Origin: Chryseobacterium tructae
GTDB lineage: Bacteria > Bacteroidota > Bacteroidia > Flavobacteriales > Weeksellaceae
Reading direction: 5' to 3'
DNA: 64,000 nt
Assembly: GCF_030409875.1 (NCBI RefSeq)
Contig: NZ_JAUFQR010000001.1
Location: 3,968,001 to 4,032,000 of the forward strand
Within the stretch, counting starts at the first letter, position 1. Each line of letters starts with the position of its first letter. Shown piece after piece: positions 7,168 through 61,764 of this stretch. A program made the position numbers and the translations under genes. Under the pieces are notes generated by a model. That model had not been told where the DNA came from. It searched no databases and saw only the letters and a program-made list of their open reading frames with translations.

Positions 7168-7695
7168 TCACTTATTGCTTATAAGACTGTCATTTTTATA
7201 AATCACTTCCTTTATTGTATTTTGAGAATTTTCCAAATCATTGTATTTATAAATCTTCCAGACTCCATCTTTCTTTCCATTATTATAATTTCCTTCCTGA
7301 GATTTTTCTTTCCAATAGCCATCTTTCTTCGACTGTTTATTAAATTCTCCCTCACCATCAATTTTTTCAATAACTGTTTTACGAAAGATATATTTGCATT
7401 GATAGCATTGATCAATCCTGTTGATGTATTTGCCAATAGGTTGATCTCTTTTAAAATTACCGAATACGATGGTATCTGATTTTTCTATCAGAAGTATTTT
7501 CCCGTTTAATTCTCCTTTATACAAAGAATAGGAAAAGTTCATATTCGGAAAGATAAATTTTCCTGTCTTTTTTTGCCTGATATCGCCATAAAAAATATCC
7601 CCTTTGTAATCTACCTGTTGATATACAATAGGTTCACTTACACATGACACCATAAAAAGGAGTATAACGAGTTTATAAAAATTGGAATTCATCAT
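7168..7695 (-). CDS. Lipoprotein with MORN-like/YwqK-type repeats
   Basis: 175 residues. The signal ends in a lipobox (LFMVSC, Cys near residue 18), so an envelope lipoprotein. The C-terminal half has repeated strands of the form G-Y/V-W-K (DGYWKEKSQEGNYNNGKKDG, then VWKIY), as in MORN-variant/YwqK-type proteins. Some of these are annotated as antitoxins. It lies between the two PAAR-headed toxin genes, 104 bp upstream of the muramidase-like one. An immunity or accessory role is plausible but inferred. Confidence 0.65.
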   Translation of the reverse strand: MMNSNFYKLVILLFMVSCVSEPIVYQQVDYKGDIFYGDIRQKKTGKFIFPNMNFSYSLYKGELNGKILLIEKSDTIVFGNFKRDQPIGKYINRIDQCYQCKYIFRKTVIEKIDGEGEFNKQSKKDGYWKEKSQEGNYNNGKKDGVWKIYKYNDLENSQNTIKEVIYKNDSLISNK

Positions 7696-7707
7696 TTAAT
7701 TTTCTTA

Positions 7708-8034
7708 TTATTCATGTTGATAATAAAAGGTGGTTCCGGCAACAGAAGTATCTGGATATTCCATAATATTATCAATTGAACCCTTTTTGAACCTTATATT
7801 ATTATACAGATTAATCTTATTCTCCATTTCCTTTAAGCTGTCTTCATATTCCAGCTTTTCAGTCTTCAATTGGCTTTCTATCTCAGAAATTCTAGTTTCC
7901 CAATCTTTTTTATTTTTAACTTTTTCATTTCCAAAATCAAATGGATAACGCTCTGGTTTTCTTTATTTTAAGTCTTTTTTATAATTACCAATACGCTTTT
8001 CGAAATCTTCAAGGTAAATTTTCTGTTTTTTATT
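7708..8034 (-). pseudogene. Degenerate coding remnant in the immunity-gene region
   Basis: No intact ORF is present, but one minus-strand frame reads as convincing protein from 8034 to 7711. It gives YLEDFEKRIGNYKKDLK, an in-frame TAA at 7965-7963, then KPERYPFDFGNE and a charged coiled-coil-like stretch to a final TAA at 7710-7708. There is no start codon at the 5' end. The KPERYPFDF block resembles KPEDYHFDN in the lipoprotein just upstream, which suggests a decayed relative or a severed 3' end. Joining it to the upstream gene would need two added bases or one removed, plus removal of the TAA, so it differs from the single-A frameshifts elsewhere. Confidence 0.5.
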
Positions 8035-8589: not shown

Positions 8590-10974
8590 TTATTTTATTT
8601 CAATTAAATATTTCTTTGTTTTTCCAAGGTTAATCATATCTTGCCATTGCCATTGATAAAAAGATTTATATTGAAAATTGCTATTGAAAGTACCATCTGT
8701 TTTCTGCCTGTAATCCAAATAATTCTCTAGAGTTTCACTATTGGATCTAGAGTTAGAAAGCTCTTCATATGAATTTGCTTTTTTCCGTTCTTTTTTCAAC
8801 CTTTCTAATTCTTCTTCTTTTATTTTTAAATTTTCTTTTTCTCGTGATAGGGTCAACTCATTAGAGCTTATTTGAGACAACTCTTTTCCTTCAAGACTTA
8901 TCACATCATTTGTTATAAAATCTATGAAATTTGTTTCAAAATTTGTAAAAGAATATTTACTGGTAACCATTCCCTCTAAAGAGGTATATTTTTCATTAAG
9001 TAAAGTCAAGCCCTGTAAATCACTAATTGGAATATTATCTTTTTTAGAGATAGCTTCCAGCTTTTCTAAATTCCCAATATTCGGTTTTATGACGCTATTT
9101 ATTTCAATGGTTAAGCTTTCAATTTCGCTTTCATAGTCTTGTTTATATTTTTGTCCATCTTCTTTTACCTGATATTTCCCCATAACTTGTGCTTCAAAAG
9201 GATGTCTTAACCCGAAAGCATGACCTAGTTCATGTATAATCAAAGAAGCTGCATCTTTATCAGTAAGAGCAGAATTGAAAATTTGTGCAGTTCCAGAATT
9301 TATTAATGAAAATGCTTGTATTTCTTTTTCCGGAGATCCTGCTCCATGTATATCTTCTGTGTAAAAGAAATAGATTTTACCATTTTGGTCTAACTTGAAT
9401 GAGTTTGGATACAATCGATTATATTCTGCTTTTTCCTTTACAAAATCTTCATACAGAACTTTTATTTTTGGATCGTTCCAGATATTAGTTACTTTATGAT
9501 CCTCATGCATCTTTTTAGCTTTTTTCAAGTCACCGCTTTTATAACCATACTTATTATCAATATCTTTCAAAAGATTTTCAATATTTTTATTAAGTAACTC
9601 TTCTCGTCTTTGCTGATCTGCCTTACCAGAGTTATTCGCTTCATATCTACGTCCTATCAGTTCATCATATTTAAGTGCTTTCTGCTTACTTGTGGCTGAA
9701 TATTCCAAATATCGTTTTCCGTCAATATCATTGAATGAACTTTTAAATTCGCTTTCCAAAAAAGTCACTTGTTTTGTAGTAGCAGCTAATTCTCCAAAAA
9801 TATATGCTTGATTAAAAGAATTCTCATTAAATAATTGTACTATATTTTTTATTAAATCTACATGAGGAATATCTTTTGATTCAGTGCTTGCTACAGTGCC
9901 AAAAGTCACCTTAACGGGTTGTATAATCGTCTTATAAATGGTGTTTCTTTTTACGATAAGCTTTCCTAATTCCTGAGGCTGGCCTTTTGCTTTTGCTATA
10001 ACCATAACATCTTTATCCAATGCTCCCGTACATTCAATACTTATTTTTTGAGGAGTTCCTTTTACACTTAATTTTATAACACCAGGAGATATTCTGATGT
10101 TATCATCAGAACTCGTTAATTCAATTTCACCCTCATTGGTTTTACTTTTTACAGATGCCTCATTAGCCTTTATATATAAAAAGACCTTACTTTTTTTATT
10201 GTCTTTATTATGATCAGTATTTGGTGCCCAAATACTTAAATATGAACATAGATATTCTTTTTTATCACCATAGGTTTTCTCTTTAGGAGTAATGCCAGAT
10301 AACTTTTCATATTTAGAAGCTAATCCTTCAGCATAACTTTTTTTATCAAATCGATCAAAACCAAATTCCCCATTATACTGAGTATCTTCTTTTCCAAATT
10401 TTCCATTTGCATTTAATTGTGACCGGTAAAAATCAATACAAGCAACAAAAGTCTGTTCCAAAATAATGTTATCCGGAATCGGAGCTCCAATTGGCTCAAT
10501 ACTTTCAGGTATATTCACTTGTCCGGAATTTGAAAACTCCACATTCCCACTTTCCGGAGGTGTTCCCGGGATAGCTCCAACTCCCGGCATAAATGATTTC
10601 TTCAACAAAACTTCGTTATCCTGTACTTTTACACTTCCAACATTTTGCCATTCTGTAAGAGTATTTAAAACAAAACCATCCTCAAAGATAAAATTAAGAA
10701 CCTGTTTTTCTACTACCGTTCCGGTAAGTTTATCCTGTGTTGTGGGCACATCATTCAGTACTTTAAAGGTTCCCGAATGGGCATTGAATTTAATTTTTGC
10801 TCCATCTATGGCCAACAATAAACCTTCTTCTTTTTTATCCTTCTCTTCATTCTCAGCCCGTTTTTCCACCATCTTTTTACTGTTCTCCGCCTTCATTTGC
10901 TCATTATCCTGAGCAGGAGCCTGATTCTGAGTTTCAAGAGCATTTCCCTTTCCCTCATCTTTTAGCCTATCCAT
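8590..10974 (-). CDS. PAAR-like (DUF4280-type) T6SS toxin with metzincin-like protease domain
   Basis: 794 residues. Residues 1-60 are charged and helical. About 50-170 form the PAAR-like head ending in SGQVNIPESIEPIGAPIPD, homologous to the muramidase-like toxin's head. About 280-360 look like an Ig-like beta domain. Near residue 580 stands HELGHAFGLRH, a complete HExxHxxGxxH zinc site with the catalytic Glu, followed by MGKY (a possible Met-turn), so a metzincin-type metallopeptidase is likely. The tail (about 620-760) is coiled-coil rich. It should be delivered by the VgrG spike and cleave target-cell proteins. It overlaps the upstream gene by 13 bp and is followed by a lipoprotein of immunity type. 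Confidence 0.8.
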   Translation of the reverse strand: MDRLKDEGKGNALETQNQAPAQDNEQMKAENSKKMVEKRAENEEKDKKEEGLLLAIDGAKIKFNAHSGTFKVLNDVPTTQDKLTGTVVEKQVLNFIFEDGFVLNTLTEWQNVGSVKVQDNEVLLKKSFMPGVGAIPGTPPESGNVEFSNSGQVNIPESIEPIGAPIPDNIILEQTFVACIDFYRSQLNANGKFGKEDTQYNGEFGFDRFDKKSYAEGLASKYEKLSGITPKEKTYGDKKEYLCSYLSIWAPNTDHNKDNKKSKVFLYIKANEASVKSKTNEGEIELTSSDDNIRISPGVIKLSVKGTPQKISIECTGALDKDVMVIAKAKGQPQELGKLIVKRNTIYKTIIQPVKVTFGTVASTESKDIPHVDLIKNIVQLFNENSFNQAYIFGELAATTKQVTFLESEFKSSFNDIDGKRYLEYSATSKQKALKYDELIGRRYEANNSGKADQQRREELLNKNIENLLKDIDNKYGYKSGDLKKAKKMHEDHKVTNIWNDPKIKVLYEDFVKEKAEYNRLYPNSFKLDQNGKIYFFYTEDIHGAGSPEKEIQAFSLINSGTAQIFNSALTDKDAASLIIHELGHAFGLRHPFEAQVMGKYQVKEDGQKYKQDYESEIESLTIEINSVIKPNIGNLEKLEAISKKDNIPISDLQGLTLLNEKYTSLEGMVTSKYSFTNFETNFIDFITNDVISLEGKELSQISSNELTLSREKENLKIKEEELERLKKERKKANSYEELSNSRSNSETLENYLDYRQKTDGTFNSNFQYKSFYQWQWQDMINLGKTKKYLIEIK

Positions 10975-53894: not shown

Positions 53895-54629
53895 CTAAGA
53901 AAAGACCTTCAGGAAATTATCTTTAAAACTTCCCGAAACTTCAATTTCAGTATCATCAGTAAGCATTACCGTTCCGCTTTTATGATAAGATTTCACAAAA
54001 GAGGTATTGATAATATGGGAACGGTGAACCCTCACAAAAGGACTTTCCAAAAGATCATCGAAATGTTTCAAAAACCGACAGACCATTTTCTTTGAACCAT
54101 CCGTAAGATATACCTGGGTAAAGTTTCCGTCGGCTTGAAGTCTTACAATATCTTCTGTTTTTACCACATCAAACCCTTGCAAGGTTGGAAGGATAAGTTG
54201 TTGCTTTTCAGGTTTTAACTTCAGGTTCTCCAGCAAAATTTTATTCCGGTTAAGTTCTTCCTTTTTCTCAATACTTTCAACCACCTTATTCACCGCCAGA
54301 ATCAGTTCCTGGATATCAATCGGTTTTAGAATATAGTAACTGGCCGACTTATTTAAAGCTTGTAAAGAGTATTGTGAAAATGCCGTAATGAAAATGGTTT
54401 CATAAGAAAAGTCTTTGGTAGCTTCCAGTACATCAAATGCGTTTCCGAAAGGCATTTCCACGTCTAAAAACACCAATTGAGGCTGTTTTTCTGCAATTAA
54501 AGGAACAGCTTCTTTAATATTTTCTGCTTCACCCAGAATTTCTACCTGCGGGCAATATTTGGTAAGATAGCTTCTCAATACTTCTCTTGCGATCAGTTCA
54601 TCATCTACGATTACAGCTTTAATTTTCAT
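53895..54629 (-). CDS. LytTR-type response regulator
   Basis: 244 residues. Receiver domain at 1-120: AVIVDDELIAREVL with the acidic pair, phospho-acceptor Asp in LVFLDVEMPFG (about 56), the Thr/Ser switch in ITAFSQ, and Lys in YYILKPID (about 104). LytTR DNA-binding domain at about 145-244 with VRLQADGNFTQVYLTDG and FVRVHRSHIIN. Such regulators bind two direct repeats about 21 bp apart, and such repeats occur upstream of the kinase, SIMPL and DUF4139 genes. Its partner is probably the TPR kinase at 56677. Own -7 box at 54650. Confidence 0.93.
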   Translation of the reverse strand: MKIKAVIVDDELIAREVLRSYLTKYCPQVEILGEAENIKEAVPLIAEKQPQLVFLDVEMPFGNAFDVLEATKDFSYETIFITAFSQYSLQALNKSASYYILKPIDIQELILAVNKVVESIEKKEELNRNKILLENLKLKPEKQQLILPTLQGFDVVKTEDIVRLQADGNFTQVYLTDGSKKMVCRFLKHFDDLLESPFVRVHRSHIINTSFVKSYHKSGTVMLTDDTEIEVSGSFKDNFLKVFS

Positions 54630-54649
54630 TGGAATTTGATATTAGATTG

Positions 54650-54657
54650 CAAAGATA
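54650..54657 (-). promoter_or_regulatory. -7 promoter box of the LytTR regulator
   Basis: TATCTTTG on the minus strand, 20 bp before the ATG. Confidence 0.65.
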
Positions 54658-54713
54658 AGTTTCAGATGCAAATTAGGAATATTTGACCATCTTTGCAATC
54701 TTCCTATAACAAC

Positions 54714-55130
54714 TTATAGCTTTTTCCATTTCCAGGCATACACGACGATCAATATCGTAATGATGCATTCTACGGCTGCAAGAAAAACATAAAATAGATA
54801 CCATTCTGAAAAGGATGAAATACCAATAAGCAGCATTACCACAGTAAAAAAAATTCCAAAAACAATATTGAGAATCCTGTTGATGACCGGTTTCAGGATA
54901 AGGGAAAGAAATACCATGACAGCAGGTATTGCCAATACTACCGCTGCCATTAATAAATTCAGTGGAGAATTCAATAAATTATGCCCGTCTACAAGCCCTT
55001 GGGTTTTCCCTGGAGTATACAACTCAAAATAATCCCCATATAAGTAACATAATGTAACAGAGCCCCAAAGACCAGCAAGTATAATTTTGACATTTACCGG
55101 AGTGTCTTCAAATTTAATAGAATTGTTCAT
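54714..55130 (-). CDS. Four-helix membrane protein (DUF6326-like)
   Basis: 138 residues with four hydrophobic segments (about 14-34, 54-78, 83-105, 110-132), a short Lys-rich tail (YAWKWKKL), no catalytic motif. Blocks like YLYGDYFELYTPGKTQGL resemble a family I recall as DUF6326, with moderate certainty. It starts 14 bp after the DUF4386-like gene, so they probably share a transcript. Confidence 0.65.
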   Translation of the reverse strand: MNNSIKFEDTPVNVKIILAGLWGSVTLCYLYGDYFELYTPGKTQGLVDGHNLLNSPLNLLMAAVVLAIPAVMVFLSLILKPVINRILNIVFGIFFTVVMLLIGISSFSEWYLFYVFLAAVECIITILIVVYAWKWKKL

Positions 55131-55144
55131 AAGACATATTAGTT

Positions 55145-55846
55145 TTAATGAATATTATTAATTGATTTATTCCTAACTCCTACAATCAACAACCACAGGC
55201 ACATTCCTATTTCCCCTATTGAAGCTGGCAGTGTTATATATCCTGATATGGCATAATCCTGAAAATCTGGAATCAGAATTCTACTAAAGACATTCATGAT
55301 ATAACCGAAGCAACCCAACATTAAAAAAACACCTAAAATTTTGGGTAAGAAACCTGATCTGTACACCAGATACCCCAATGGAAATAACCAAAGCCCCCAG
55401 AAAATCTGAACAATTAAAATTCCTTTATTATAATTGCTTAGCAGAAGCATTACCTGAGCCTGTAATTGTCTGGAATCAAATACTTTTAAATAATCCGCTC
55501 CCTCAACCAGGGTAAGTACAGAAAATTTATTTTGTAAATTAATCAATGAAATAGGAACACTTATTATGGCAAAAATCACCATCAATCTTGCTGCATTTTT
55601 ATTAGTTTCTTTTAGCAGCTGATACAAAGCTAAAGGGAGCAATGTAAAAGCAATATAACAAAGCATACTGCTTGCAATTCCCGACCTGAAAAGAAAATTG
55701 GATGAAGAAATATGATGAAAAGTAAGTCCCGGATCTTCTTTTACAATAAGTTGTGAGGGTACATACATTAGACTGTAAAAACCGGTTATGATGACAACAA
55801 GATAAATAAATCCTGCTAATCGGGCTGTTTTATTATTGATACTCAT
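55145..55846 (-). CDS. DUF4386-family membrane protein
   Basis: 233 residues with about six hydrophobic segments. The DUF4386 opening is NNKTARLAGFIYLVVIITGFYS split at 4-25, then LFRSGIASSMLCYIAF and the repeated LIVQIFWGLWLFPLGYLVYR block. Function unknown. It lies upstream of the small membrane gene at 54714 and after a secreted hypothetical protein, same strand. Confidence 0.8.
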   Translation of the reverse strand: MSINNKTARLAGFIYLVVIITGFYSLMYVPSQLIVKEDPGLTFHHISSSNFLFRSGIASSMLCYIAFTLLPLALYQLLKETNKNAARLMVIFAIISVPISLINLQNKFSVLTLVEGADYLKVFDSRQLQAQVMLLLSNYNKGILIVQIFWGLWLFPLGYLVYRSGFLPKILGVFLMLGCFGYIMNVFSRILIPDFQDYAISGYITLPASIGEIGMCLWLLIVGVRNKSINNIH

Positions 55847-55940
55847 CTGGTTAGTTTTTAAACTAATAAGACGAGGTTAATATAAATTTTGTTACAGTGA
55901 AAAGTAATTATAATTGTTTTAATAAAAGGAGGTTAGAAGA

Positions 55941-56666
55941 CTACTGATATTTTCCATTTTTGAATTTCAGTGTTTTATAGAATGTTTTTGAAGTTTCTTT
56001 TTCCTCACATTCTCCTTTCACTTCAGTATTGATGCTGGTTACAGAAATAGTCTTAATTTTAAGATCTGTGAAATTATTTGTTTTGGATGTATCCATCATG
56101 ATATAGGAATGGTCATCTTTAAATTCACCATTACATCGGGTATCCCACTCCCCTGTGGTTGAATCCATTTCAAACTGATCAAGAACTTTTTTAAAGGTTT
56201 TTCCTTCCGGATAATACATTGAAATGGTACCTGAAGCATACGGGTTGGGTCTGCTGCTTCCTACAAAATCTGCTTTTACTCCAAAGGCACGAATATTCGG
56301 ACTGATGTTGTATAGTCCGGTATCAATAGTAAAGCTTCTTAGGTTTACAGCGTCAGAATTTAGCTCCATAGGATCTAGATATTTGTTCTTTATCATTCCG
56401 TTGCTATCTGTAATTAAAATATAGTTCTTGACTGTAAAAACATAATCTTCTTCTTCCTGACTCACAATTACTGGAATAACTGCAATATAGGAGTCTTCAG
56501 CATTAGGCATTTTCTTTTCGATACAAAGCTCTTCTCTGATCTTGGTTTTATCCAATTTCAGGTTTTTAAGAATAGTTGTCAATCTGATACTGTCAATATC
56601 CTGGGCTGATACGATTCCGGAGAACAGGCAGATCATCAGTATGAATAGGGAATTTTTTTTTTTCAT
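55941..56666 (-). CDS. Secreted protein of unknown function
   Basis: 241 residues, signal peptide NSLFILMICLFSGIVSAQ, mature domain beta-rich with Cys at about 45, 182 and 220. No motif recognised. It starts 10 bp after the sensor kinase gene ends, so it is likely in the same transcript and may be an envelope component watched or controlled by that kinase; that is inference. Confidence 0.65.
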   Translation of the reverse strand: MKKKNSLFILMICLFSGIVSAQDIDSIRLTTILKNLKLDKTKIREELCIEKKMPNAEDSYIAVIPVIVSQEEEDYVFTVKNYILITDSNGMIKNKYLDPMELNSDAVNLRSFTIDTGLYNISPNIRAFGVKADFVGSSRPNPYASGTISMYYPEGKTFKKVLDQFEMDSTTGEWDTRCNGEFKDDHSYIMMDTSKTNNFTDLKIKTISVTSINTEVKGECEEKETSKTFYKTLKFKNGKYQ

Positions 56667-56676
56667 TGTATCATTT

Positions 56677-58458
56677 TTAAACCAGATTAATTTGAATAGT
56701 GACCAAAACCCCGCTATTGCTTTCTTTATCCTTTACAGAACAAGTTATATCTTTTTTATACAGATCATTCAGCAGCTTAATTCTTTCCAGCGTATTTTTC
56801 ATTCCTCTTCCCTCACGGGTTTTCTGGTGTTGGGTTTTCTGTTTTTTGCTTTCTTCTATTCCTATTCCGTTATCTTCAATGGTAATTCTTAGATCATGGC
56901 TATTTTTCTCAAAGCTTAATTTCAAAAGTCCTTTTTCTGATCTATAACGCAATCCATGCCAGATAGCATTTTCTAGAAACGGCTGTACAAGCATTCCGGG
57001 AATCTGTAGGCTTTGCATATTCAGGGATTCATCAACATTAATTTCGTAGTCAAACTTATCAGCAAAACGTGTTTTTTCAAGAGCAAGATAATTTTGGAGC
57101 AGATCCAATTCCTGCTGAAAAGGGATAAAATCATTGGTAGAGTTTTCCATCACGCCACGCATCAGTTTTGAAAACTTGGTAAGATACTGATTAGCCTCCA
57201 ATTCATTATTGGTCGCAATAAAGTGATTGACACTATTCAGGCTATTAAAAATAAAGTGAGGATTCATCTCCCGTCGAAGGGATTGAAGTGCGATCTTCTT
57301 ATTCTTGATCTGAACTTTTTTCAACGTTCTGAAAATGAAAATAACAAGACCTGTCAACAGGATCAAAGCACCTATTAACCCATAATTAAAAAGATTTTTC
57401 TTGCGGATAAGCTCGTCTTTCAGCTCTTTTTCCTTCTCCAGTTGTGATATTCTTTGTTCCGTATCTTCCAGGATCTTATTATCTACCAGACTTCTGTCTT
57501 TAGAAACTAAATTCGGAAGTTTTCCTAGAAAATCTCTATATAACTGAACTGAAGCATCAATATTTCCTGAAATAGCATACAGACTGTCCAGTCTCTTTAC
57601 ACTTTTCTGAGCTTCCAGCGTATGGCCTTTATCTAATGCAATTCCGTAGGCGTTTTTCAACAAATCCACGGCTTCTTTCGGATCATTTTTCTTGATGTAG
57701 ATATCTGCCAGTTCCTGAATCTGATTAACTTTCTCTTGTGAGTTATCTTTTACGAAATCTTCTTTTAAAACCTTCTTTTTAGCTTCAATAGCTTTATCAA
57801 AGTTCTTATTTTCAACATAAAGATCAGCAAGTTTCTGATTAATAGCCAAAGCTTGTTGTGGAGCTTCTTTTTTTGAAATTTTATAAGCGGCATTAAGGTT
57901 TTCCTCTGCTTTATAAATATCTTTCTGTCGTATATTCACGTCTGCCAATTGACTGTACCCTTCCGCTACATTGGCCTGTTCATTTTCTTTTTTGCTTATA
58001 TTAATATTATTCTGAATCGCTTCTGCCTGAACCTCCGGTGTAGGAGCTGAAAGTCTTGCTACATCATTAGAATTAACGGTTTTGCTTTTCTCACTATAAC
58101 TCATCTGCGCTGCCATACTGTAATTGCTGATGGCAGGCGTTATTTTATTTTGCTTTTCCTGTGACTGGGCTAATTTCCGGGTAACAGATTCCAGATTCTT
58201 TTTATCATTAAGTTTCTGATAAAGAGCTTTTGCTTTCACAAGATACTCTTCACTCTTCGCATAATTTCCTTGATTATAGTAATCGGAAGCCATGCCTACA
58301 TAAGTATCTGCAACGCCTTTATCATCATTCTTATCTACTGCCTTTTTCAGTTTTGCAGCAGACTTCACAGCTTGGGAAACCCTTGTAGTATCCTGTGCTG
58401 AAAAGTAATTTCCCACCATCAATATTGAAATGAACAGTATTTTAAAAGCTAATTTCAC
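56677..58458 (-). CDS. TPR-containing LytS-type sensor histidine kinase
   Basis: 593 residues from GTG 58458, chosen because VKLAFKILFISILMVGNYFS is a signal peptide and because the upstream TTG start would overlap the promoter repeats. About 35-330 is periplasmic TPR repeats. One membrane segment (YGLIGALILLTGLVIFIF) follows a coiled coil. The His_kinase block is LRREMNPHFIFNSLNSVNHF, with phospho-acceptor His, and the ATPase N box lies in QPFLENAIWHGLRYRS, with ITIEDNGIGI as G1 box. It probably phosphorylates the LytTR regulator at 53895. Confidence 0.88.
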   Translation of the reverse strand: MKLAFKILFISILMVGNYFSAQDTTRVSQAVKSAAKLKKAVDKNDDKGVADTYVGMASDYYNQGNYAKSEEYLVKAKALYQKLNDKKNLESVTRKLAQSQEKQNKITPAISNYSMAAQMSYSEKSKTVNSNDVARLSAPTPEVQAEAIQNNINISKKENEQANVAEGYSQLADVNIRQKDIYKAEENLNAAYKISKKEAPQQALAINQKLADLYVENKNFDKAIEAKKKVLKEDFVKDNSQEKVNQIQELADIYIKKNDPKEAVDLLKNAYGIALDKGHTLEAQKSVKRLDSLYAISGNIDASVQLYRDFLGKLPNLVSKDRSLVDNKILEDTEQRISQLEKEKELKDELIRKKNLFNYGLIGALILLTGLVIFIFRTLKKVQIKNKKIALQSLRREMNPHFIFNSLNSVNHFIATNNELEANQYLTKFSKLMRGVMENSTNDFIPFQQELDLLQNYLALEKTRFADKFDYEINVDESLNMQSLQIPGMLVQPFLENAIWHGLRYRSEKGLLKLSFEKNSHDLRITIEDNGIGIEESKKQKTQHQKTREGRGMKNTLERIKLLNDLYKKDITCSVKDKESNSGVLVTIQINLV

Positions 58459-58515
58459 GGATTTCAAATCTTTATTGCAAAGTAAGTAAAACTTTATCGA
58501 CCAGCTTCTATTCTT

Positions 58516-58544
58516 TACCAAGCCAAAACACTATTTCACCAAGT
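58516..58544. promoter_or_regulatory. Direct-repeat operator upstream of the sensor kinase
   Basis: TACCAAGC (58516) and CACCAAGT (58537), period 21 bp, the first copy degenerate. It lies 31 bp before a near-consensus -7 box (TTACTTTG, 58484-58477 on the minus strand). Same spacing as the two operators at 59170 and 60079; orientation relative to this gene is reversed. Confidence 0.5.
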
Positions 58545-58630
58545 TGTAGTCTAAAAGAGATTTCATCACAAATGAAACAATTCCATATCGTAGAAAGAAT
58601 ATATTTATAGTAATCAAAATAATGATTAGT

Positions 58631-59116
58631 CACAAAAGATTTAAACACTTAAGGGATTTTAAGGTAAAAGCATACTATATAAGAAGTACACATAAGTTTT
58701 TGAAAATCTTTGATTTTCATATACGCAAACATCTGCAAAATCTGAGAAATCTGCGAGAGAATAAAACTTCACAAGTTTTTTTAAGAAAATAGTCAACCAC
58801 AAAAGTCACAAAAGATTTGAACACTTAATGAACTTCAAGTTAAAACCATAATCCATAAGAAGTACACATAAGTTTTGAAAATCTTTGATTTTCATATATG
58901 CAAACATCTGCAAAATCTGAGAAATCTGCGAGAGAATAAAACTTCACAAGTTTTTTTAAGAAAATAGTCAACCACAAAAGTCACAAAAGATTTGAACACT
59001 TAATGAACTTCAAGTTAAAAGTACAATCCATAAGAAGTACGCATAAGTTTTTGAAAATCTTCGATTTTCATATACGCAAACATCTGCAAGATCTGAGAAA
59101 TCTACGAGAGAATCTA
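58631..59116 (+). repeat. Three tandem copies of a ~176-bp intergenic repeat
   Basis: Copies begin at CACAAAAGATTT at 58631, 58807 and 58982, so the period is 176 and 175 bp; the third stops near 59116. Within each copy are GAAAATCTTTGATTTTC (inverted) and a stretch CTGCAAAATCTGAGAAATCTG. Copies 2 and 3 are almost identical, copy 1 differs more. No ORF spans them. Confidence 0.85.
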
Positions 59117-59169
59117 ATCATCAGCAATATTATCGGAAATAATACAATTAAAACACAATTTGTAAAGCT

Positions 59170-59198
59170 CACCAAGTGAAAGTTCCATTTCACCAAGT
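59170..59198 (+). promoter_or_regulatory. LytTR-type direct-repeat operator of the SIMPL gene
   Basis: CACCAAGT at 59170 and again at 59191, period 21 bp. A -7-like TAATTTTAC (59226-59234) begins 28 bp after the second copy ends. This layout is repeated exactly at 60079-60143. Confidence 0.65.
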
Positions 59199-59264
59199 CT
59201 TCCGATTTTAAGATTCCAATCGAACTAATTTTACATCAGAATTTAAAAGTAAAAACAAGAAATT

Positions 59265-59939
59265 ATGAAATTGAAACATTTTTTATTAATCGGAATTTTA
59301 ACGCTGGGAAGTTTTGTAAACGCTCAGGAAATAAAGAAAAATGCAATTGAGGTAACGGGTGTTGCCGAAATGGAAGTAGAACCGGATGAAATCATCTTCA
59401 GCATCGGAATAAAAGCAGATAACAAAAATGATCTGGCGGACAATGAAAAGAAGATGTTTGATATTCTAAAGAATGCTGGTGTAAAGAACGAGGATATCAA
59501 ATTTAAATCGATGTACCAGAACATATACGCCAAAAACGGCAAATTTTCAAAGAACTATCAGTTTAAAACTAATGCAAAATCTAACCTGAGTAAAATCTTT
59601 GAAGATCTGAATCAGAAATGGGTAAGCAGCCTGAACATTGCGGAAGTAAAAAACACCAAGATTGCAGACTTTAGAAAAGCAGTAAAGATCAATGCTTTAA
59701 AAGCAGCAAAAGAAAAGGCTGATTATCTGTTGGAAAGTATGGGTAAAAAAGTGGGCAACGTCCTTGAAATCGTTGAAATTGAAGACTACACCAGCGACAC
59801 TGTTATGCCTGTTGCTTACAAAAGCAGAATGAGCAATGTACAAATGGAAATGGCAGATGCACCTGTAGATTTTTCATTTGACAATATTGAAAATATAAAG
59901 CTGAAATACAGTATCAAAACGAGATATGAAATCCTTTAA
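59265..59939 (+). CDS. Secreted SIMPL-domain (DUF541) protein
   Basis: 224 residues. Signal peptide LKHFLLIGILTLGSFVNAQ, then the SIMPL pattern: IEVTGVAEMEVEPDEIIFSI, a helix, and AVKINALKAAKEKADYLLES followed by GKKVGNVLEIVEIED. SIMPL proteins are envelope proteins of unclear biochemical role. It has its own LytTR-type operator and terminator and is followed by the DUF4139 gene under the same operator, so the two are probably co-regulated by the nearby two-component system. Confidence 0.88.
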   Translation: MKLKHFLLIGILTLGSFVNAQEIKKNAIEVTGVAEMEVEPDEIIFSIGIKADNKNDLADNEKKMFDILKNAGVKNEDIKFKSMYQNIYAKNGKFSKNYQFKTNAKSNLSKIFEDLNQKWVSSLNIAEVKNTKIADFRKAVKINALKAAKEKADYLLESMGKKVGNVLEIVEIEDYTSDTVMPVAYKSRMSNVQMEMADAPVDFSFDNIENIKLKYSIKTRYEIL

Positions 59940-59956
59940 AATAACAGATTTAAATA

Positions 59957-59986
59957 GAGGCTGCCACACTTTTGGCAGCCTTTTGC
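59957..59986 (+). terminator. Terminator after the SIMPL gene
   Basis: GGCTGCCA / TGGCAGCC stem, loop CACTT-like, then TTTTGCTTTTT. Confidence 0.85.
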
Positions 59987-60078
59987 TTTTTAATCATATA
60001 GGCTAGCATATACATTTATAAACTATTGCGAGTTATTTTATTCGTGAATTAGTGGCTAAAAATAAGAGTTTATCTACT

Positions 60079-60107
60079 CACCAAGTGAAAACCGCTCTTC
60101 ACCAAGT
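60079..60107 (+). promoter_or_regulatory. LytTR-type direct-repeat operator of the DUF4139 gene
   Basis: CACCAAGT at 60079 and 60100, period 21 bp, followed after 27 bp by TAATTTTAC (60135-60143), then ATAATTTAAAA. Spacing and promoter sequence match the SIMPL operator. Confidence 0.65.
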
Positions 60108-60166
60108 ATCCCCATTTTCAGGCTTTAATACAGGTAATTTTACTTCATAATTTAAAATAATAAACA

Positions 60167-61764
60167 ATGAAACGTTATCTTTTAATCACTCTATTTTCGG
60201 TAGTCTTTTTCAAGGCACAGGAAATCAAAAAAGAAATTGAGGTAAAGCAGGCTACTGTATTTCTGCAGGGAGCAAAGGTCTTTGGAAGTACAAACGTCAA
60301 TCTTCAGAAAGGAAGAAATACCATAAGAATTGTAAATCTTCCGAATGATCTGGATGAAATACGTATAAAATTAATCTTGAAAAGAACACCACACTTCTAT
60401 CGATCACTCCTCAAAATAATTTTTTGAAAGAAGATCAGCTTTCCGATGGTGAAAAAAAGCTGGATGATGAAAGAAAAAAACTTCAGAGACAGGTCAGCCT
60501 TTTGAATATTCAGGTTAAAAATCTTACGGGAGAACAGAATATCATTAATGATAATTTAAAGGTATCAGCCCATGATAAATCAACGCCTCAGGAACAACTG
60601 ATTAAGCTTACTGAATTTTATAGAAAAAGAATGCTGGAGATTGATAACCAGATCTTTCTATTAAATGAGCAGAAAATCACACTGGATGAAGGTATTGCCA
60701 AGCTTAATAAACAATCTGATGAAGAACAAACTCATAAAAACACGAATAGAAAAGAACTTTTACTTGAAATTCTTGCCGATAATGATACCAGCCTAAATCT
60801 AGGTGTTAGTTATATCGTTTCTAATGCAGGCTGGGTTCCGTCTTATGACCTTCGTGCCGAGTCTGTAAAGAAGCCTCTTGAAATGATTTATAAAGGAAAA
60901 ATCTATCAGAAAACCGGACAGGACTGGAAAAATATAAAACTGTTTGTTTCTACTTACAGACCATTATACAATCAGGATAGACCTATCCTTTCTCCGCTTT
61001 ATGTTGCAGAATATACGGCTCACAATGCCATGCTTGAAGTTGCTGATTATAAAGCGAAAAAAGAATCTGCATTGGTAAATGCTTATCAAATGAGACAGGA
61101 GATCGCTGCAAAACCTAGCCAGATCCCTATTGCATCTGTTTCTGACAGCCAAATGAATGTAATTTACGAGCTCAACTATACCCAAACTATTCTTAGTCAG
61201 GAAAAAGAACAATATGTGATCCTGGATAAAAAGCAAATTGATGCTACTTATAAATACCATACGGTTCCAAAGGTAAATAACCAGGTATTCCTGATGGCAT
61301 TTGTGAAAAACTGGCAGAACCTCAACCTTATTAATGGGGAAGCGAACATCTATTTTGAAGATAATTATATCGGAAAGACCAATATTACCAGTAACTATGT
61401 AAAGGATGAGTTCCCAATTTCTCTGGGAGTTGATGAAAGAATTACTGTGAAAAGAATCAAACTGGAGGATAAAGCTTCTCAAAAACCTATGAATTCTAAT
61501 AAATGGGAAACAGAATCTTACCAGATCAGTGTGCGAAACAATACCAAAGAAAGTATTGAACTTGAAGTGCTTGATCAGCTTCCTATCAGTGAAAACTCTA
61601 AAATTTCAGTGAGAGCAATAGACACTGGAAGCGGAAGCCTTGATGAGAAAACGGGAAGTATTCTTTGGAATAAAAAAATAGGTTCCGGAGGCTCTGAAAA
61701 GATCAGCTTCTCTTATGAAATAAAGTATCCTAAAGAGATGCAGATCCAATATTACAACAGATAA
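60167..61764 (+). CDS. Secreted DUF4139-domain protein, frameshift at about 60358
   Basis: Signal peptide RYLLITLFSVVFFKAQ. The 5' frame has EVKQATVFLQGAKVFGSTNV, the usual DUF4140-type N-terminal domain, and fails at coding-strand AAA (60357-60359). One extra A reads DLDENTYKINLEKNTTLLS into the second frame. About 85-190 is a long coiled coil; the DUF4139 domain follows with SYIVSNAGWVPSYDLRAES and IYQKTGQDWKNIKLFVST. Repaired length 532. Members are labelled mucoidy inhibitor-like. Probably a periplasmic or surface protein, co-regulated with SIMPL. Confidence 0.88.

Follow-up and report, generated by a model that had tools for sequence, protein, structure and literature searches.

A direct repeat with a 21-bp period recurs upstream of three genes in a 64,000-nucleotide stretch of the Chryseobacterium tructae genome (the window), and raises the question of which protein binds it and which genes it governs. 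The genes concerned encode a TPR sensor histidine kinase, a SIMPL (DUF541) protein and a DUF4140/DUF4139 (MuiA family) protein, and a LytTR response regulator is encoded in the same window. The repeats are very probably the operator of an autoregulated LytTR two-component module that drives the expression of SIMPL-, VWA- and MuiA-like exported proteins. Bacteroidota have many LytTR regulators, and the literature, searched by title and abstract start with subscription papers mostly outside the search, yielded no description of this operator, or of any LytTR operator or regulon in this phylum, and no paper joining DUF4139 with two-component systems.

Predicted operator sites in the window and the genome

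The operator pattern was defined as CACCAAGT-N13-CACCAAGT, a head-to-tail repeat with a 21-bp period. Its copies in the window, the predicted promoter elements and the genes of the module are as follows.

58516..58544, + strand: operator copy 1, two mismatches, 41.5 bits; upstream of the kinase gene and inverted relative to it
59170..59198, + strand: operator copy 2, exact, 49.5 bits; upstream of the SIMPL gene, roughly -68 to -40 when the -7 box is set at -12 to -5
60079..60107, + strand: operator copy 3, exact, 42.9 bits; upstream of the DUF4139 gene
58478..58485, - strand: predicted -7 box of the kinase promoter, TTACTTTG, one mismatch to TAnnTTTG; 30 bp from the operator
59226..59234, + strand: predicted -7 region TAATTTTAC of the SIMPL promoter, 27 bp after operator copy 2
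60135..60143, + strand: predicted -7 region TAATTTTAC of the DUF4139 promoter, 27 bp after operator copy 3
53895..54629, - strand: LytTR response regulator (receiver and LytTR DNA-binding domain), the proposed binder; Pfam PF00072 (Response_reg) 59.3 bits and PF04397 (LytTR) 45 bits, both above cut-off
56677..58458, - strand: TPR sensor histidine kinase, His_kinase PF06580 (76.7 bits, cut-off 25.2) and HATPase_c
59265..59939, + strand: SIMPL (DUF541) protein with a signal-peptide-like N terminus, 82 bits
60167..60427, + strand: first piece of the DUF4140/DUF4139 (MuiA family) gene, whose reading frame is broken in this genome
60424..61764, + strand: second piece of the same gene, in another frame; DUF4139 165 bits, TIGR02231 224.6 bits (cut-off 112.6)

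Exact matches to the pattern occur just twice in the window, at 59170 and 60079, and 100 dinucleotide shuffles of the window gave none. These are the two 21-bp-period repeats of the original prediction, made from the DNA letters alone, and TAATTTTAC begins 27 bp after each of them, at 59226 and 60135, as it had also claimed; its assignment of a LytTR protein to position 53895 is borne out by the two Pfam domains. The weaker pair that it had placed at 58516/58537, upstream of the kinase, is present with two mismatches, in an orientation that it left unmentioned: all three copies share one direction, so that copy 1 is inverted relative to the kinase gene on the - strand.

The genome-wide search that the original prediction had proposed did not find the motif scattered at random. 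Throughout the 5.63-Mb genome there are 31 matches with at most three mismatches, and the three with two or fewer are the sites in the window. The remaining 28, all at exactly three mismatches, are regarded as background because a reversed control pattern yields 34 matches at up to three mismatches in the same genome; a wide regulon in this genome was rejected, three-mismatch matches being no commoner than with the control. The control also yields two matches at two mismatches or fewer, so that operator copy 1 is not distinctive by its letters alone; what sets it apart is its conservation and the presence of an exact copy 0.65 kb away.

Conservation and promoter phasing in Chryseobacterium

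Conservation was assessed in 80 named Chryseobacterium loci (1.58 Mb) and, separately, in 148 genomes. The loci contain 218 sites with two mismatches or fewer, every one on the same strand and none on the other. A site lies 50-170 bp upstream of SIMPL in all 80, and within 200 bp of the aligned start of the kinase in 76 of the 77 loci in which a kinase was detected; in the exception (L123), whose kinase match is fragmented, 76 bp separate the end of the N-terminal fragment from the site at 8944. Six loci have a single operator between back-to-back kinase and SIMPL genes, and in most of the 80 a LytTR orthologue is close to the sites. Behind the downstream sites (n=63) the next gene is DUF4139 at 42 and that of a VWA-domain protein at 20, and in other species sites in the kinase-SIMPL gap precede a gene for a second SIMPL-domain protein (SIMPL2, ~305-321 residues). 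The DUF4139 counterpart is unbroken behind the same site in 42 relatives' loci, with a median of 533 residues. Where VWA takes its place behind operator and -7 box (20 of the 63 downstream sites; L097, L100, L105 and others), the arrangement looks like an operon whose leading gene was deleted from behind its promoter.

The distance from operator to promoter hardly varies: TAATTTTAC follows at exactly 27 bp in 131 of 137 cases, made up of 70/74 SIMPL-type sites and 61/63 downstream ones. In Flavobacterium psychrophilum the sigma-A box TAnnTTTG has been mapped to -12 to -5 (PMC9723704), and on that scale the operator would therefore cover about -68 to -40. This geometry bears on whether the LytTR protein activates or represses. 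Were it to bind the sites as a repressor, phosphorylation would relieve or set the repression, and regulators of this type can work in that way: PlnD is described as repressing through the repeats that PlnC also uses. Here, though, a set distance of 27 bp parts the sites from the -7 box downstream of them, with no overlap, and fixed phasing is more typical of an activator. The -33 promoter element has a TTTG-like consensus, and the spacer consensus contains no such element, which also speaks against repression. Overall, repression is unlikely.

A second question is whether the kinase-side copy acts on the kinase at all, or is the relic of the promoter of a lost target, the second SIMPL, left without control of the kinase. 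The copy does point to the target side, and SIMPL2 is the next long reading frame at 13 of the 76 kinase-type sites. Against this, it persists where no target gene follows (L241, L243). On the kinase strand, moreover, all 76 kinase-type sites have a TAnnTTTG-like box at a distance of 29-30 bp (offsets of 29-31 bp were searched, with at most one mismatch to TAnnTTTG), and the target-side TAATTTTAC is intact at 8 of the 76; some sites preceding SIMPL2 carry a TAAGTTTG-like box in its stead. A relic is thus quite unlikely, and the best reading is that a non-canonical direct-repeat operator is able to act on two divergent promoters. Ancestrally, a single operator probably lay between divergent kinase and target genes and served both, which would explain why the kinase copy is inverted.

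Sites also accompany the genes when these are parted. One contig of G142 has the kinase and LytTR genes at 0.59 Mb and those of SIMPL, SIMPL2 and VWA 2.0 Mb away, at 2.60 Mb, and in G053 kinase-LytTR and targets are 0.2 Mb apart on one contig; both genomes have sites at both places. Among the 148 genomes, 144 have at least one match with two mismatches or fewer (counts are per-genome totals, with places listed for part of the matches) and 142 have a LytTR protein match at E <= 1e-40. Ten genomes are without an orthologue-quality LytTR match, six having none and four one near 1e-45, and G063 has its LytTR in two pieces. These 11 were searched for the site, the kinase (E <= 1e-80) and SIMPL (E <= 1e-20), and in eight (G045, G051, G073, G087, G099, G103, G109 and G134) kinase, SIMPL and clustered sites are all absent. 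Four of the eight are without any match and G045, G087, G099 and G134 have one to three scattered matches, each with two mismatches save one with a single mismatch (G099). In G056 and G123 the sites are exact and the kinase is matched in part, the match in G056 ending at the contig start.

Other genera, other families and the LytTR orthologue

Elsewhere in the family, loci of other genera (L236, L237 and L239, with LytTR proteins 88, 78 and 72% identical) have a site before SIMPL2 and another before the downstream target, the second L237 site with three mismatches. In L240, whose LytTR is 64% identical, the motif is absent and a different perfect 21-bp direct repeat occupies the gap between kinase and VWA genes, an alteration alongside a diverged regulator which suggests that operator and regulator changed together. 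The L240 repeat is GAATGGGTAAA, repeated at 21 bp between the divergent kinase and VWA genes (7427-7761).

In all 15 Flavobacterium loci fetched, LytTR and kinase genes are divergent to a VWA gene, SIMPL2 stands between them in six, and 11 have DUF4139 beyond. When a matrix built solely from Chryseobacterium was applied to these 15, each had a site of at least 20 bits between kinase and target, and TAnnTTTG or TAnnTTTA stands exactly 27 bp after 21 of 21 matrix matches there. A locus from a third family (L275) scores 35 bits. Half-sites and spacing are kept across the three families as spacer and flanks drift.

Co-occurrence with the regulator was measured in 80 of 299 Flavobacterium genomes, namely 40 of the 62 with a LytTR orthologue and 40 of the 237 without (no match at E <= 1e-80), using a looser operator pattern; three of the 40 positives (G442, G450 and G315) had served to draw that pattern, and five of the 40 negatives are less than 90% complete. 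With the orthologue, 39 of 40 genomes have a match at two mismatches or fewer and 36 at one or none; without it, the corresponding figures are 4 and 1 of 40 (Fisher 9e-17 for site presence against LytTR orthologue). All 39 matching genomes have, as judged by eye, at least one match within ~4 kb of the LytTR gene, and two have one extra match elsewhere. In the sole miss, G705, TTCACCAAGT is spaced 21 bp from TTTACCCTTT, and TAAGTTTG follows after 27 bp. A 34.5-bit site at 8896 of L286, from a Flavobacterium genome without a LytTR orthologue, precedes a run of genes for exported-looking proteins.

The repeats could in principle be bound by some other DNA-binding protein whose gene lies elsewhere, with the LytTR pair a passenger of the cluster. 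Binding by LytTR is a deduction from the distribution and layout of the sites, and G658 has a site without a LytTR orthologue. The presence and absence of sites nevertheless track LytTR in Flavobacterium, the kinase-LytTR pair retains a site once separated from the targets, and direct repeats at such spacing are the usual LytTR layout (PMC6193735). The L240 gap, moreover, has a changed repeat that still keeps the 21-bp period. A different binder is accordingly improbable. That the likeness of the two 91-bp regions upstream of SIMPL and of DUF4139, 75% identical, is a functionless local duplication is scarcely credible, and simple duplication was rejected, given that half-sites and spacing are kept over three families despite the drifting spacer and flanks.

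Several observations weigh against a LytTR operator. Sites at other positions (n=5, in five of the 80 Chryseobacterium loci) have TAATTTTAC at +27 in none of five; L238, in which just kinase and LytTR (77% identical) are present, yielded no site; and the one-mismatch site of G658, before a run of genes for exported-looking proteins, stands in a genome without the orthologue. The loss together of LytTR, kinase, SIMPL and sites (8/148) does not alone single out LytTR, because the genes are linked. A blind search over spacings of 17-26 bp in 20 loci, L240 and 19 others (L274 left out for want of a target), found 21 bp to be the outright best in 10 and tied best in four more (L267, L268, L269 and L276); another spacing won in six, in five of which the matrix does find 21-bp sites. 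L273 and L274 have weak matrix scores (16.0 and 13.7 bits), and L276 and L277 gave no matrix match, L277 having a related 21-bp repeat. Finally, the general LytTR repeat consensus is [TA][AC][CA]GTTN[AG][TG], and the two-copy mismatch total to it is two or less at 28 and three at 133 of the 218 sites; random perfect 21-bp repeats reach two or less in 1126 of 5000. The canonical consensus was thus rejected for the repeat unit, its fit being no better than to random 21-bp-periodic sequence. This consensus does not firmly define LytTR systems, because repeats vary between them (PMC6193735).

The proposed module and known LytTR systems

In the module as proposed, the TPR kinase would sense a signal outside the membrane, as its signal-peptide-like start and one hydrophobic segment between TPR and kinase parts suggest, and would phosphorylate the LytTR regulator. 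The regulator would then bind the two half-sites, which run head to tail with an offset of two helical turns and span about -68 to -40, and would assist sigma-A RNA polymerase at a promoter with its -7 box exactly 27 bp on. The predicted targets are exported SIMPL proteins, the DUF4139 (MuiA-like) and/or VWA protein, and the kinase itself, which would provide positive feedback. Promoter spacing, persistence of the sites at unlinked genes and co-occurrence with the orthologue strongly support, from comparison of genomes, the original prediction that the repeats are a LytTR operator. The regulon that it named, of kinase, SIMPL and DUF4139, is likewise supported, and in relatives would be wider, taking in a second SIMPL and VWA.

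Some details of the locus are particular to this genome. The open reading frame listing starts the kinase at TTG 58521, which falls within the operator, and GTG 58458 is the more likely start on sequence grounds. The gap between kinase and SIMPL is filled by one further feature:

58628..59113, no strand assigned: ~175-bp repeats, 64-97% alike; the same place holds the second SIMPL gene in some relatives

No relative of the second SIMPL or the VWA protein is encoded in the window (tblastn, E up to 1e-3). The kinase adjoins or lies near LytTR in relatives. Genes for PA3715-domain, DUF4386 and DUF6326 proteins part the two here, and the pair is adjacent in several relatives; the gene at 55941-56666, between kinase and LytTR, encodes the PA3715 family domain (NCBIfam, 210 bits).

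On balance we lean towards a previously undescribed envelope-signalling module, present in at least three Flavobacteriales families, in which an asymmetric operator drives both directions (27 bp and 29-30 bp), tying kinase feedback and target expression to one site, and in which operator and regulator changed together in some lineages (L240). Such a module would link SIMPL, MuiA/DUF4139 and VWA proteins, which are conserved yet unexplained exported proteins, to one sensor, and would give them an operator, a promoter phasing and a short target list; the signalling system, in turn, gains a predicted, testable switch and a list of its targets. An operator working in both orientations, if true, would be a mechanistic point for LytTR activators.

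The module has the sequence features of a LytTR two-component system: a regulator with receiver and LytTR domains, a PF06580 partner kinase and ~21-bp direct repeats upstream of promoters. It resembles BtsSR/YpdAB and LytSR in pairing such a regulator with a His_kinase (PF06580) partner, and differs from them in its sensor part, here TPR, and in targets and operator sequence. Against NCBIfam the regulator scores best with the BtsR and LytR models, far under their cut-offs, and in a PDB sequence search, among the matches listed (60 of 92), the rows rest mainly on the receiver domain and are uninformative about DNA binding. The sensor of LytS is a multi-membrane-span domain, and no LytS-type sensor domain was among the 12 Pfam families found (TPR/TPR-like, His_kinase and HATPase_c). 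AgrA of Staphylococcus aureus, from another phylum and with another promoter type, has a different repeat sequence. It binds, as a dimer, a pair of direct repeats that precede promoters whose core spacing is suboptimal (PMC4227749).

Within Bacteroidota, Flavobacterium johnsoniae co-evolved with Burkholderia thailandensis acquired mutations in FJOH_RS09515 or RS09520, consecutive loci for a LytTR protein and a histidine kinase, in five of five lines (PMC10197871, Table 2). That these loci are the present module is not established, as the base positions given for the mutations show no obvious agreement with the 248/249-residue orthologues. The HdrRM/BrsRM systems of Streptococcus mutans are autoregulated and have direct repeats usually 12 bp apart, just upstream of -35 (PMC6193735). 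They pair the regulator with an inhibitory membrane protein, whereas the partner here is a histidine kinase, so that the module is not of the HdrRM type. Across LytTR regulatory systems the repeat sequence varies and length, spacing and position are kept (PMC6193735). The layout found here, with repeats two helical turns apart, in fixed phase with the -7 box and upstream of the core promoter, is that of the LytTR activators AgrA and HdrR (PMC4227749 and PMC6193735), and it suggests that the regulator of this module is likewise an activator.

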